DNA of 43,623 bases from an uncultured Prochlorococcus sp. (GTDB taxonomy: Bacteria; Cyanobacteriota; Cyanobacteriia; PCC-6307; Cyanobiaceae). Positions 9,400 to 38,919 of this stretch are shown here, piece after piece. The notes beneath the pieces are model-generated. The model saw only the letters and a program-made list of their open reading frames with translations, had not been told where the DNA came from and ran no database searches. The stretch is taken from positions 1-43,623 of the forward strand of contig CACLGU010000008.1 in NCBI GenBank assembly GCA_902606505.1, read 5' to 3'. Each line of letters begins with the position of its first letter. Position 1 is the first letter of the stretch. The translations under genes were made by a program, and so were the position numbers.

Positions 9400-9466
9400 C
9401 TGTCTTCCAATACATGCAGACGTTTTTACAAAAGGTCTGTAATCTGGCAAAATATTTAATCGCGTA

Positions 9467-9485
9467 GGTCTGAAAATATCAGACC
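9467..9485 (+). other. Strong stem-loop between the genes for subunits a and c
   Basis: GGTCTGA-AAATA-TCAGACC: a perfect 7-bp stem with a 5-nt loop in the 165-bp gap before the subunit c gene. No T-run follows, so it is not a typical terminator. A 5' stabilising or processing hairpin that raises the yield of the multi-copy c subunit is a reasonable inference. Confidence 0.55.
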
Positions 9486-9546
9486 CATTCTTAAACGAAA
9501 GGATGTCCAAGCGTGTATGACAAAAAAGATTTATCACAAGTATTAA

Positions 9547-13925: not shown

Positions 13926-14252
13926 ATGCCTGAATACAATATCAAAGTTCAATTTGAGCAAAAGACTTTTAGTTTTTTATGTTCTGAAGATCAAGATATT
14001 ATTTCAGCGGCAAAAATGAATGGAATAGACTTACCAAGTAGTTGTTGTTCAGGAGTTTGTACAGATTGTGCATCCATGATATTGGAAGGATCTGTAGATC
14101 AAGAAGATGCTATGGGGTTAAATGATGATTTGAGGGAAAAGGGCTTTGCACTTTTGTGTGTGGCATATCCCAAGTCAAATTTGAATATCGTTATTGGTAA
14201 AGAAGTCGAAGATGATTTATATAATGATCAATTTGGTAAATATCAAAAATGA
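13926..14252 (+). CDS. petF: Plant-type [2Fe-2S] ferredoxin
   Basis: A 108-aa ferredoxin. The cluster ligands are visible as C-X4-C-X2-C in SSCCSGVCTDCASM (about residues 38-50) and a fourth Cys in FALLCVAYP about 30 residues later. Family role: soluble one-electron carrier. The C-terminal tail (EVEDDLYNDQFGKYQK) is acidic. It starts 16 bp after the gamma gene and overlaps the next gene by 4 bp, so it belongs to the atp transcript or directly follows it. Which partner enzyme it serves is not shown by sequence; petF is used as the family symbol only. Confidence 0.88.
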   Translation: MPEYNIKVQFEQKTFSFLCSEDQDIISAAKMNGIDLPSSCCSGVCTDCASMILEGSVDQEDAMGLNDDLREKGFALLCVAYPKSNLNIVIGKEVEDDLYNDQFGKYQK

Positions 14253-15526: not shown

Positions 15527-17220
15527 TAAGATATTGCTATTGGAACTCTCCAGTCACTTCCTAATGATTGACTGCTTATTTTTAGAATTGGAGGAGCCTG
15601 TTTCCTTTTAAATTCTGCTTTTTTCATAAGTGAAATTATTTTTAAAATTAATTCTTTTTTATAACCATCTTCTTCAAGTTGTTTTAAATCTTTTTTCTCT
15701 TCAATAATTCCTTTAAGAATATTATCTAGGATGGAATAAGGTGGGAGAGAATCAGTATCTAATTGATTAGGCCCTAATTCAGCACTTGGAGCTTTTTTAC
15801 GTATATTTTCTCCAATTATATCTACATTCATTTCTAACATATATGATTTTCTGTGATTAATTGAATCTTTACTATCAAGCCAATTGCATAATTTAAAAAC
15901 ATTACTCTTATATAAATCCCCTATTACAGATAATCCTCCATTCATATCACCATAAAGTGTGCAATATCCTACGGCTAGTTCCGATTTATTACCTGTTGAA
16001 AGTAATAAATGCTTTTCTTGATTTGCTAAAGCCATCAGAAGCGTTCCTCTTATCCTTGACTGAATATTTTGATTTGTTATTTCAGCCATCTCGAAATCTA
16101 TGTTTTTTATGAAAGACTCTTCAAAAGAGGTCATCAAGTTTTCAATTGGGATGCTGTTGAAATTTATATTTAACCTTCTAGCTAAATCTTTTGCATCACT
16201 CTTTGAATGAGATGAGCTCCATTTAGACGGCATTGAGACGCAATAAATATTATCACTTCCAAGTGCAGCAGTTGCAATTGCTGAAACAAGTGCTGAATCA
16301 ATGCCACCGCTCAATCCAATTAAAGCTGTTTTAAATCCACATTTTTTTGCATAATCTTTAACACCAAGGACTAATGCATCAAAAATTGAGGACATCTCGG
16401 AGTTTTTAAATTTATTTTTTTCAGGTCTTGTTTGATCAATTTCCCAACTGGAGAGCTCTTCTGAAAAGGATTTAAGCTGCTTTATTTTTGATCCATTCTT
16501 ATCAAGGATAAAACTACTTCCATCAAAAATTAAATTATCATTTGCCCCAATCTGGTTTACATAAATCAGAGGTACTTGAAGATATTGTGCAGCAAAACTG
16601 GACACTTTTGATCTTAGCTCTAACTTTCTGAAAGTATATGGGGAGGCTGATAAATTTATTAAAATATTAACTTTTTTTTTCTTTAAATCAAGAATAGGAT
16701 TTTTTTTATGAATTCCTCTGCCTTCTATATCTTTGTTGACCCATAAATCCTCACATATAGTAAAGCCAAGTCGCCAAGTTTTATTTTTAATTTTTTTTTC
16801 TAATACGGAAACTTTTTCTTCTGATCTAAAGTATCTTTTCTCATCAAATACTTCGTAAGTAGGAAGAATAATTTTACGAGCAATTATTTTCCATTCACCG
16901 CCCTCAAGCAAAGCAATAGAGTTATAAAGGTTTGGAAAAAAAGAATCATTTATTATCTCAGCTATCCCTACTGTGATACTTAAGTTTCTATATTTTTTAT
17001 TTATATCTAAGGCTAATTGATCAATTATTTGATATTGATTTTTTATTAAATTTTTTTTAAAAAGTAAGTCATTTGCAGGATATCCCCATAATGACAATTC
17101 TGGAGTAAGAACAAAATCAGCAGAAATTGAGCAAGCTTTCGAAGCAATATATAGTATTTTTTTTGCATTGCCCTCTAAATCTCCAACTACTGGATTTATT
17201 TGAGCAAGTAAAAACTTCAT
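15523..17220 (-). CDS. nadE: Glutamine-dependent NAD+ synthetase
   Basis: A 565-aa two-domain enzyme. The N-terminal nitrilase-type glutaminase domain shows the triad regions TPELSLWGYPANDL (Glu), KIILPTYEVFDEKRYF (Lys) and FTICEDLWVN (Cys). The C-terminal synthetase domain has the PP-loop GLSGGIDSALVSAIA (about residue 292) and STGNKSELAVGYCTLYGDMN. It amidates deamido-NAD+ using ammonia from glutamine, the last step of NAD synthesis. nadD lies just upstream, overlapping by 4 bp: consecutive steps of one pathway in one operon. Confidence 0.96.
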   Translation of the reverse strand: MKFLLAQINPVVGDLEGNAKKILYIASKACSISADFVLTPELSLWGYPANDLLFKKNLIKNQYQIIDQLALDINKKYRNLSITVGIAEIINDSFFPNLYNSIALLEGGEWKIIARKIILPTYEVFDEKRYFRSEEKVSVLEKKIKNKTWRLGFTICEDLWVNKDIEGRGIHKKNPILDLKKKKVNILINLSASPYTFRKLELRSKVSSFAAQYLQVPLIYVNQIGANDNLIFDGSSFILDKNGSKIKQLKSFSEELSSWEIDQTRPEKNKFKNSEMSSIFDALVLGVKDYAKKCGFKTALIGLSGGIDSALVSAIATAALGSDNIYCVSMPSKWSSSHSKSDAKDLARRLNINFNSIPIENLMTSFEESFIKNIDFEMAEITNQNIQSRIRGTLLMALANQEKHLLLSTGNKSELAVGYCTLYGDMNGGLSVIGDLYKSNVFKLCNWLDSKDSINHRKSYMLEMNVDIIGENIRKKAPSAELGPNQLDTDSLPPYSILDNILKGIIEEKKDLKQLEEDGYKKELILKIISLMKKAEFKRKQAPPILKISSQSLGSDWRVPIAISY

Positions 17221-34140: not shown

Positions 34141-34856
34141 TAGAACGCTGGGCACTCGTAAGTGGTCTTAAAGGGGATCTAGATACTTATGAACTTATTC
34201 AAAAAGATTTAAAAAAAACTCCTGGTAATATAACTCTTTTTGTTTTGGGGGATATGATAGGTCCTGAAAAAAACTGTAATAGGCTTCTCCATAGGTTAAT
34301 TAATCCAAAAAGTAATGATTTACAACCATGGTGCATATATGGTTGGTGGGAAGAACAAATCCTCTTGGAAAGTGGTTACCGTGGTGATCAAAGAGCTGAA
34401 GCTTTGAGAATAAATAAGGGTGAAGAAGTAGTTAAGTCTCTTACGAATGCTGTAGACAAATCATTTCTTGATTGGATAGCAGCACTTCAATTTGGATTTG
34501 TTGAACTTGATTGTGGTTTGATTCACGGAAGCTCAAAAGATGTTGGCGAAAATTTAACACTAGATACGCCGCCACTGACACTCCTTGATAGACTTACACG
34601 TCTTCAGGTAAACAGATTATTTACTGCAAGAAGTAAACAACAGTTTCACTTGGAATTGACAGAGGGGATTGTTAATTCTGAAGTAGAAGATTTAAATGGA
34701 AATCGTAAGAAAGAGCAGAAAGTTCCTCAAAAAGCTGTTATTGGTATTGGGGCAGGAAAAAATTATACTCTTTATGATGTCGGGACTGATAATACTCAAT
34801 TCGTACAAGCAGGATATAAAACAGAAAAAAGAATTAAGGGATTTGGAAGGCTTTAG
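34137..34856 (+). CDS. Degenerate metallophosphoesterase-fold protein
   Basis: A 239-aa protein. WALVSGLKGDLDTYELIQKD, FVLGDMIGPEKNCNRLLHRL, CIYGWWEEQ and ELDCGLIHGSSKDV line up with motifs I, II, III and IV of the preceding phosphoesterase, but the motif I DxH is absent, GNxD is GWWE, and the final GHxH is missing. It is probably a non-catalytic partner of the upstream protein (ATGA overlap). Its last 20 codons are duplicated as a relic at 38085-38140. Confidence 0.7.
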   Translation: MIERWALVSGLKGDLDTYELIQKDLKKTPGNITLFVLGDMIGPEKNCNRLLHRLINPKSNDLQPWCIYGWWEEQILLESGYRGDQRAEALRINKGEEVVKSLTNAVDKSFLDWIAALQFGFVELDCGLIHGSSKDVGENLTLDTPPLTLLDRLTRLQVNRLFTARSKQQFHLELTEGIVNSEVEDLNGNRKKEQKVPQKAVIGIGAGKNYTLYDVGTDNTQFVQAGYKTEKRIKGFGRL

Positions 34857-34861
34857 TTTTT

Positions 34862-34906
34862 AGCATCAAGTACCCACTTCATTAGCCAGTAATTAATTTT
34901 AGTCAT
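34862..34906 (-). pseudogene. Relic of the EVE gene 5' end (copy 1)
   Basis: Read on the minus strand from 34906: MTKINYWLMKWVLDA, against MTEINYWLMKSEPDA of the intact EVE gene at 32284. About 15 codons remain before the frame hits the tail of the phosphoesterase-like gene and a stop. Too short for a working domain. Confidence 0.75.
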
Positions 34907-35122
34907 AGTCTATAATTTGCAGGAAATAGTGCTGCTGGTATGGTGCTGTTATGGCATTTTGTTAATTTTTGCGTAATTCAGCCAAATTCAAAGCATTTTA
35001 TTTAGTTTATCGAACAATATTAGTCGAAGAAAGTTCAAATTTATAAAAGTGTTAGCGGGTATGTGGGGTCCGCATGATGATTTTATATCGTTAAATATGA
35101 CTTTAAAATTTCTGTTGAAATT

Positions 35123-35272
35123 TTACGGATATAACTTTTTAATAGCTTCTTTTTGTTCTTGCTTTTTTATTTCTTTAGCATCTAAAACAGGGCAAGAGTT
35201 TTGATTTAGTGATGTGAGGAAAGTGCTTTTGTTGAATAGTTTGAACAGTAGTGGGAGTAGTAAGCGTTTCAA
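35123..35272 (-). CDS. Duplicated 49-aa small protein, copy 1 (TTG start)
   Basis: Absent from the ORF track. From TTG at 35272: LKRLLLPLLFKLFNKSTFLT..., ending KKQEQKEAIKKLYP. The second copy at 38770-38919 has an ATG and the same length; the C-terminal 20 residues are nearly identical while the N-terminal part diverges mostly at the amino-acid level but stays hydrophobic/basic. The stop of the upstream 86-aa gene lies 1-2 bp before the start, so translation may be coupled. A short amphipathic or membrane-anchored N-terminus plus a single Cys (QNSCPV). Function unknown. Confidence 0.65.
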   Translation of the reverse strand: MKRLLLPLLFKLFNKSTFLTSLNQNSCPVLDAKEIKKQEQKEAIKKLYP

Positions 35273-36477: not shown

Positions 36478-36657
36478 ATGAATTTAGGTATTCTTTTTAT
36501 CCTAGTTAATGCAACTGGATCAATAACTTTATCCGAATTGGATTGGATTGCAGATCATCAATCAGAATTTTCAAGGTTAGATATGGCACTAGTTTTAAAG
36601 ATTGGTCGACTTATGGATGAAGGGATAATAGAACTTGATTGTAAATTGCCAGCATAA
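36478..36657 (+). CDS. 59-aa hypothetical protein closing the hli operon
   Basis: Not in the track. MNLGILFILVNATGSITLSE starts a hydrophobic N-terminus; the rest (LDWIADHQSEFSRLDMALVL...IELDCKLPA) looks like a small winged-helix-like soluble fold. A strong terminator follows after 25 bp, which supports this as the last gene of the hli unit. Function unknown. Confidence 0.65.
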   Translation: MNLGILFILVNATGSITLSELDWIADHQSEFSRLDMALVLKIGRLMDEGIIELDCKLPA

Positions 36658-36682
36658 ATATTAAAAATTAAATCGTCATGAG

Positions 36683-36716
36683 AGCTTGCTTTTAGGGATA
36701 TAAGCAAGCTTTTTTT
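36683..36716 (+). terminator. Strong Rho-independent terminator of the hli operon
   Basis: AGCTTGCTT-TTAGGGATAT-AAGCAAGCT followed by TTTTTTT: a perfect 9-bp stem, the best terminator in the window. Confidence 0.92.
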
Positions 36717-38140: not shown

Positions 38141-38204
38141 TTTTTAGCTATTGAATCAAGTTCCCTAAACTTGTTATGAATATATTTTATCGGTATAAGT
38201 GGTC

Positions 38205-38294
38205 TAAGGACTTGTCCTATTTGTAAGGACTTGAGCCTAGCGGTTTCAAGGTTAACTCCGCACTCCTGCACACGAGTACAAAAACCTTTTTTAT
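38205..38294 (+). ncRNA. Candidate small RNA within repeat copy 2
   Basis: A promoter-like TTGTTA (38171), 17 bp, TATAAG (38194) precedes about 90 nt with no ORF. The stretch can form GTCCT-ATTTGTA-AGGAC and then a terminator-like AAGGTT...AACCTT followed by six T, with an inner ACTC/GAGT hairpin. The loop contains ACTCCTGCACAC, close to the Yfr1 core ACTCCTCACAC but with one extra G. Prediction only. Confidence 0.5.
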
Positions 38295-38416
38295 TAATGA
38301 AGATTACTTCCAAGACACTTAGCTTGCTGCTTAATGTAGTTTTTGTGCTTTGTGTCTTTGTTATTTAAAGGCTATTCATCAAAAGAGATTAATAGTTTCC
38401 GGGTTTTATTACTTCG

Positions 38417-38444
38417 AACCGAACTCAATATCGGTTAGTTTTTT
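38417..38444 (+). terminator. Hairpin terminator downstream of the candidate sRNA
   Basis: AACCGA-ACTCAATA-TCGGTT then AGTTTTTTAG: perfect 6-bp stem with a T-run. No gene upstream except the candidate sRNA, whose read-through it could stop. Confidence 0.55.
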
Positions 38445-38453
38445 AGTCTGTGA

Positions 38454-38475
38454 AAGTTTGAGTAAAGTTTGAGTA
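38454..38475. repeat. Tandem AAGTTTGAGTA x2
   Basis: Two perfect, adjacent 11-bp units in the extra DNA (about 38147-38511) that splits repeat copy 2. This DNA otherwise holds only the candidate sRNA and a terminator. Confidence 0.7.
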
Positions 38476-38511
38476 AAAAATTACGAGTCCTTGAGATCCC
38501 AGGTATCGCTA

Positions 38512-38553
38512 GTCGCGCTCACTTTTCATTAGCCAATAGTTAGGATTAGTCAT
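38512..38553 (-). pseudogene. Relic of the EVE gene 5' end (copy 2)
   Basis: Minus strand from 38553: MTNPNYWLMKSERD then TAG, against MTEINYWLMKSEPD of the intact gene. It keeps AAAAGTGAGC of the parent where copy 1 has diverged, so neither relic derives simply from the other. Confidence 0.78.
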
Positions 38554-38919
38554 AGTCTTATATTTCGAGGGAATAGTGATGCTGGTATGGTGCTGGGATG
38601 GCATTTTGTTAATTTTTTCGTAATTCAGCCAAATTCAAATCATTTTATTTAGTTTATCGAAGATATCTGATCGAAGAAAGTTCACATTTATAAATGTGTT
38701 GGTGGGTATGTAGGGTTCACATGATGGTTTCATATCGTTAGATGTGACTTTAAAATTTCTGTTGAAATTTTACGGATATAACTTTCTAATAGCTTCTTTT
38801 TGTTCTTGCTTTTTTATATCCTTAGCATCATAAACTGGGCAATTATTCTGTTCAAGAGATGAGAAAAAAGTTCTCCTTTTAAAAGCTTTAAATATAGGAG
38901 TAAGTAAGAAACGTTTCAT
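38521..38919. repeat. Long direct repeat, copy 2 (main part)
   Basis: Matches 34875-35272: EVE relic, noncoding block (38554-38769, with GCATTTTGTTAATTTTT, AATTCAGCCAAATTCAAA and TTTCTGTTGAAATTTTACGG shared) and the 49-aa gene. Few gaps are needed; divergence is highest in the 5' part of the 49-aa gene. Confidence 0.9.
38770..38919 (-). CDS. Duplicated 49-aa small protein, copy 2
   Basis: Not in the track. From ATG at 38919: MKRFLLTPIFKAFKRRTFFS, ending KKQEQKEAIRKLYP. Same length as copy 1 with no frameshift; both keep the MKR(F/L)LL start, a single Cys (NNCPV/NSCPV) and the charged C-terminus. It lies 39 bp after the last gene of the nitrilase cluster on the same strand. A short basic hydrophobic N-terminus could be a membrane anchor. 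Function unknown. Confidence 0.72.
   Translation of the reverse strand: MKRFLLTPIFKAFKRRTFFSSLEQNNCPVYDAKDIKKQEQKEAIRKLYP

Follow-up and report, generated by a model that had tools for sequence, protein, structure and literature searches.

A stretch of about 0.35 kb in an uncultured Prochlorococcus genome, present in the second of two repeat copies, raises the question of what kind of transcript it encodes. The sequence-only reading had seen here a distinct small RNA (sRNA) with a Yfr1-like core, a promoter, two hairpins and a U-tract terminator. We analysed the whole DNA stretch to which it belongs (43,623 nt, here called the window) together with homologous loci of the genus. Comparison of both repeat copies bore out that the insertion is limited to copy 2, and the promoter TTGTTA-N17-TATAAG was found in the window sequence as described. 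The features of the region are, by window position:

38149-38524, plus strand: stretch unique to repeat copy 2 (copy 1 lies at 34801-35177)
38171-38199, plus strand: promoter, with TTGTTA at 38171-38176, a 17-nt spacer and TATAAG at 38194-38199; start expected at about 38206
38206-38296, plus strand: conserved leader RNA of about 91 nt with a predicted start site, marked by covariance matches and a low p-distance
38215-38229, plus strand: 5' hairpin P1 (TCCTA/AAGGA), 94% of alignment cells paired
38240-38261, plus strand: possible stem A, GCGG (38240-38243) with CCGC (38258-38261)
38248-38288, plus strand: stem B with U-run, the 'terminator' of the sequence-only reading, AAGGTT (38248-38253) with AACCTT (38283-38288)
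38262-38277, plus strand: hairpin C, ACTC (38262-38265) with GAGT (38274-38277), its loop holding the anti-Yfr2 core
38263-38274, plus strand: anti-Yfr2 core CUCCUGCACACG, forming 12 bp with 5'-CGUGUGUAGGAG of the genome's own Yfr2-family RNA
38297-38368, plus strand: 23-codon ORF, MKITSKTLSLLLNVVFVLCVFVI and stop, a predicted single-span membrane peptide, intact in 82 of 96 homologues
38382-38450, minus strand: remnant of an integrase 3' end, convergent, 78% identity over 23 residues
38417-38436: terminator-like hairpin within the integrase remnant, tail AGTTTTTTAG, listed by the terminator scan

Both repeat copies end with paralogous 49-aa ORFs on the minus strand (35123-35272, beginning MKRLLLPLLFKLF, and 38770-38919, beginning MKRFLLTPIFKAF); the second gave no match in Pfam.

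A DNA search for close relatives covered 266 genomes of the genus (HL-type Prochlorococcus), from which 97 loci were collected and compared. The covariance-model search that had been suggested as a check was run with a model built from 45 distinct leaders and returned 98 matches in 95 of these 266 genomes. Such recurrence among genus genomes far exceeds chance. The distribution was patchy, with the element present in 37 of 87 near-complete genus genomes, and when 300 genomes sampled from the family were searched, the covariance model matched none outside the genus. An intact copy was found in MIT9312 (taken as genome G019), at about 1408734-1408906 on the minus strand, and a decayed copy without the ORF in MIT9515 (taken as G023); in MED4 (taken as G033, in keeping with where Yfr1-motif RNAs have been published to lie, PMC2518516) the model detected no homologue. 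Phage and plasmid collections contained no match to the element. Nine pattern matches in viral contigs were discarded as chance, their common part being a 17-base pattern alone, and among the matches listed this pattern also occurred in many bacteria outside Prochlorococcus, again attributable to chance. A literature search, with the 2014 primary transcriptome of MED4 and MIT9313 outside its scope, found no paper describing the element.

The flanks of the element fell into several, mutually unrelated types across the loci. Mean pairwise distances were 0.427 upstream and 0.344 downstream of the element, 0.159 in the ORF, 0.113 in the 5' hairpin part and 0.082 in the 57-nt 3' part of the leader. 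As the leader is conserved more strongly than the ORF, the RNA itself is under selection. In two genomes (G009 and G002) two direct copies of the element lie 11-13 kb apart (L105:2557-2720 and 14024-14127; L106:2759-2901 and 15730-15886); in the second copy of G009 the similarity ends right after the ATG, as if an insertion or recombination had cut there.

The promoter was conserved as well. Of 96 homologues, 92 had the TATAA box, and the majority had a TTGTNN -35 element at exactly 17 nt spacing. In each of the four copies lacking TATAA the core and the ORF were decayed or altered; copies without the promoter had a damaged core, and their ORF was lost or altered.

The fold required more caution. 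Two hairpins and a terminator had been proposed from the single sequence, but its 93 nt folded no better than shuffled versions (z 0.11). Conservation of structure was evident from the relatives, in which the hairpins were kept paired across the 45 distinct leaders. Hairpin C was paired in 97.8% of cells over 45 sequences, with exchanges between A-U, G-U and G-C, and in P1 three pairs were changed on both sides in the same set. Stem B was paired in 100% of cells and almost invariant, with a compensatory change in locus L101 (AAGTTT with AAACTT). Stem A, paired in 98.9% of cells, was likewise almost invariant, without compensatory change; as it crosses stem B, it would possibly imply a pseudoknot or else a fold alternative to stem B. 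In the competing hairpin TTGARCC/GGTTTCAA 96% of cells were paired, and the variable G/A position showed pair-keeping changes only. Tested against column shuffles, the whole structure was reached by 3-8 of 500 depending on the measure, a test weakened by the kinship of the sequences. P1 was lost in five loci (L073, L077, L084, L088 and L093) via a short deletion between AAGGACTTG repeats, and in all five the 3' leader and the ORF were intact.

Downstream of the U-run, the ATG of the ORF follows after 3-8 nt in nearly all homologues, and the length is fixed at 23 codons. The intact ORFs comprised 49 distinct sequences encoding 40 distinct peptides that fit the pattern M(K/Q/R)I(T/S)SKTLSLLLNVVFVLCVFVI, with a mean hydropathy of 3.0 over residues 8-23. 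Across the 49 distinct ORFs pN/pS was 0.35, and changes at codon positions 1, 2 and 3 numbered 145, 51 and 191. This substitution pattern indicates that 38297-38368 is a gene under purifying selection. No family in Pfam, NCBIfam or PHROGs matched the peptide, and no Shine-Dalgarno sequence was found upstream of its ATG. The element also contributes a conserved gene for a peptide that matches none of the families searched.

These data bear directly on the idea of a free-standing sRNA, about 85-90 nt long and acting in trans, whose end would be at AACCUUUUUU, the ORF being a separate feature further downstream. Such an RNA would agree with the promoter and the Yfr10-like presentation of the core in a loop, with the stronger conservation of the leader than of the ORF, and with the few homologues that keep the core next to a broken ORF (among them L014, L069 and L096). 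It would also account for AAAACCTTTT, which is invariant in the 45 distinct sequences and has no Shine-Dalgarno role to explain it. However, an ORF of fixed length under purifying selection starts 3-8 nt after the U-run, a gap too small for a promoter of its own. The supposed terminator is a weak 6-bp helix, AAGGUU/AACCUU, with two G-C pairs; the terminator scan listed neither this helix nor a G+C-rich terminator hairpin closing the leader. Hence we regard a free sRNA as quite unlikely. Because the U-run helix is weak and a conserved ORF follows directly, the RNA is best read as the leader, about 91 nt long, of an mRNA for a tiny membrane peptide. 'Distinct sRNA' is therefore probably not the right description of the element: what stands is a structured, promoter-driven RNA with a core of the Yfr1/Yfr10 type that is distinct from both Yfr1 and Yfr10. 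An RNA ending at 38292 is not supported, as the conserved unit runs on into the 23-codon gene.

A dual-function RNA with an attenuator would reconcile both products. Transcripts stopping at the U-run helix of stem B would yield a short anti-Yfr2 RNA and read-through the peptide mRNA, and the balance between the two would be shifted by the binding of Yfr2 or by competing folds, either TTGARCC/GGTTTCAA or stem A. The near invariance of stem B with its U-run and the pairing of the competing hairpin, with pair-keeping changes at its variable position, are in line with this; on the other hand, stem B is thermodynamically weak and the competing structures lack decisive compensatory changes. We consider an attenuator unlikely, though a better candidate than the free sRNA.

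Returning to the leader of a peptide mRNA, the loop sequence provides the link to other RNAs. The loop ACTCCTGCACAC was confirmed and lies at 38262-38273 on top of ACTC/GAGT. To describe it as a Yfr1 core plus one G is correct to the letter, yet it misleads: in the homologues the additional base is A or G, and with it the loop matches Yfr2 exactly. In its majority form the loop reads CUCCUACACAC and is perfectly complementary to the 5' motif GUGUGUAGGAG of Yfr2. The reverse complement of the majority core CTCCTACACAC is GTGTGTAGGAG, which Yfr2-family RNAs carry as their 5' motif (PMC2518516). The Yfr2-family RNA of the same genome (Rfam RF01701) is encoded on another contig, at C27:9369-9436 on the minus strand. 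The G of the leader forms a G-U pair with it, the only one in the 12-bp duplex. This duplex had a predicted energy of -23.0 kcal/mol, which none of 5000 shuffles reached and which was unique among 4354 real sequence windows of the 43-kb stretch, the next best being -18.5.

Among 57 distinct ORF-bearing copies the core occurred as CTCCTACACAC (26), CTCCTGCACAC (15), CTCCTACGCAC (6), CTCCTACACAT (6) and four singletons. All 11 of 11 pairs with Yfr2 were kept in 56 of the 57 (55 by script, plus L072, in which a duplication of CTCCT also holds the full match). Most of this variation consists of transitions, so that the fit of the pairing is moderate evidence only. With the core fixed, extra pairing of the GCGGTTTCAAGGTTAACTCCGC part with the conserved loop of Yfr2 was not significant, a fraction of 0.37-0.50 of the shuffles being as good. 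Exact matches to GTGTGTAGGAG inspected in nine genomes were Yfr2-family genes or the complement of the leader (G043:1451979); membership in the Yfr2 family was checked directly for MED4 and for the window's own genome. Yfr2-family RNAs were found in 84 of the 87 near-complete genus genomes, including genomes without the peptide unit. The published MED4 sRNA Yfr15 (G033 654301-654562, complement; L120) runs antisense to Yfr3 and for that reason also contains CTCCTACACAC; it is thereby a further RNA fully complementary to the Yfr2 motif.

Taken together, comparison of the sequences shows a promoter, a structured leader, selection on coding, and a complementarity to Yfr2 that has been maintained. 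With a probability of about 0.58 the element of HL Prochlorococcus is a unit of a promoter, a leader that would bind Yfr2 as target or sponge, and a 23-codon gene for a membrane-type peptide. We infer its transcription and translation, binding in the cell, the direction of the effect and the function of the peptide from the same sequences. In the proposed mechanism, the element's own promoter would drive a structured leader of about 91 nt followed by the gene for the hydrophobic peptide. Within the leader a short hairpin would carry the core CUCCU(A/G)CACAC in its loop, and this loop would form 11-12 bp with the 5' motif of Yfr2, a chromosomally encoded sRNA that contacts Yfr1 and Yfr10 by the same motif. 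Several points count against this reading: the Shine-Dalgarno sequence is missing, Yfr2 also occurs in genomes without the unit, and the single sequence folds unremarkably. Moreover, with the core 23-34 nt before the peptide ATG, pairing with Yfr2 would not directly cover the start codon; instead, Yfr2 might set the amount of peptide through a change in RNA folding right before the start codon, or in the stability of the RNA. The leader transcript would in turn titrate some Yfr2, and a two-way effect seems the most likely consequence. More tentatively, the element may be a bifunctional transcript associated with a mobile element, its leader a dedicated sponge or sensor for Yfr2 while the same RNA encodes the 23-residue membrane peptide; if so, peptide production would be wired into the central sRNA network of the host.

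A full-length integrase gene converging on the peptide gene was found in three genomes (L208, L200 and L238). The one at L208:1717-3285 encodes 522 aa and matched the PHROG 1 integrase (E 3e-14); with Pfam Phage_integrase it scored below the cut-off. In most other loci the integrase is a remnant, its 3' end shortly past the stop of the peptide gene. Since this 3' end alone is left in most genomes, the peptide unit, as judged from the loci compared, outlives the integrase. The link to the hli/nitrilase region that had been suggested proved weak: of six long loci from other genomes, four had an hli-like gene no more than about 4 kb away, and none had a nitrilase gene.

Alternatively, the conserved stretch could mainly be the end by which an integrase-bearing element attaches, retained because recombination takes place there, with the RNA features being secondary. 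The position of the integrase 3' end or remnant in most loci would fit, as would the direct copies 11-13 kb apart in G009 and G002, but an att site leaves the codon-pattern selection, the conservation of the promoter and the pair-keeping changes in the hairpins unexplained, and we hold this to be very improbable.

Mobile-gene neighbours, a very small hydrophobic peptide (23 aa, hydropathy 3.0 over residues 8-23) and an RNA complement in the leader would likewise be expected of a type I toxin-antitoxin system with the peptide as membrane toxin and the chromosomal Yfr2 RNAs as RNA antitoxin acting via the leader. Antitoxin RNAs of this class are, however, normally encoded at the locus itself, neither Pfam nor NCBIfam yielded a family for the peptide, and the units are often lost or decayed, Yfr2-bearing strains included. 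Such a system is improbable here, only somewhat less so than an attachment end. In type I toxin mRNAs such as ibs and shoB a leader likewise precedes a very small hydrophobic peptide and an RNA complement exists; the complement of the present leader differs in being a core sRNA encoded elsewhere, and toxicity of the peptide is only hypothetical. The class is mentioned in PMC5126843.

Regarding known RNAs, Rfam searches at the candidate locus with E up to 10 returned chance matches only, and no tRNA or tmRNA was found there. The ATPC RNA motif (RF01067) was detected elsewhere in the window (9425-9515, plus strand, 97.8 bits). Yfr20 (RF02367) resembles the leader as an 89-nt island sRNA near hli genes; its sequence differs, and identity was rejected because the local score against MED4 Yfr20 equalled that of shuffles. 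A probable Yfr20 homologue is a separate RNA upstream of the leader at 36590-36716 (plus strand), lying downstream of hli genes with some overlap with the end of a 59-aa ORF; it scored 27.8 bits with RF02367, below the cut-off of 44, and its local alignment with MED4 Yfr20 was far above shuffles.

Regulators are scarce in Prochlorococcus. Few sRNA networks have been studied in this genus, and that of Yfr2, Yfr1 and Yfr10 is one of them. Yfr2 pulls down 5' UTRs and binds Yfr1 and Yfr10 through its 5' motif (PMC6778093, PMC2518516), and it increases in high light and under nitrogen limitation (PMC6778093). If our main reading is true, a third RNA, strain-variable and integrase-linked, would be a better fit to Yfr2 than either Yfr1 or Yfr10, and the flexible genome would feed the Yfr2 network. 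Yfr2 itself (Cyano-1, RF01701) carries the exact complement GUGUGUAGGAG and is the proposed partner strand, not a relative of the leader. With Yfr1 (RF01116) the leader has ACUCCU...CACAC in common, but in Yfr1, an RNA of about 54-59 nt, the core ACUCCUCACAC is unpaired and flanked by two stem-loops, whereas the leader core sits in a loop. The candidate is not Yfr1: its loop reads ACUCCUGCACAC instead of ACUCCUCACAC, with A or G inserted in the homologues, RF01116 gave no match at E up to 10, and the genome has a separate true Yfr1 (58 bits with RF01116).

The leader also resembles Yfr10 (RF02362), Yfr12 and Yfr18 of Prochlorococcus, which likewise present a CUCCU-CACAC-type core, complementary to the Yfr2 5' motif, in a hairpin loop; in the leader, hairpin C places the core in the same way. 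RF02362 detected Yfr10 in MED4 and in the window's own genome and gave no match at the candidate with E up to 10, and the element model R1 did not detect Yfr10, Yfr12 or Yfr18 of MED4. In HL strains Yfr10 is encoded upstream of a Yfr2 homologue (PMC6778093); in contrast, the leader is not adjacent to a Yfr2 gene, the only exact motif match of its genome lying on contig C27 and the window being contig C8. Unlike Yfr10, the leader is followed by a peptide gene and has no evident similarity to Yfr10 outside the core. Finally, Yfr1 and Yfr10 pair with the Yfr2 5' motif only through a bulge and a mismatch, whereas the extra A or G of the leader core would allow pairing with Yfr2 without a bulge.
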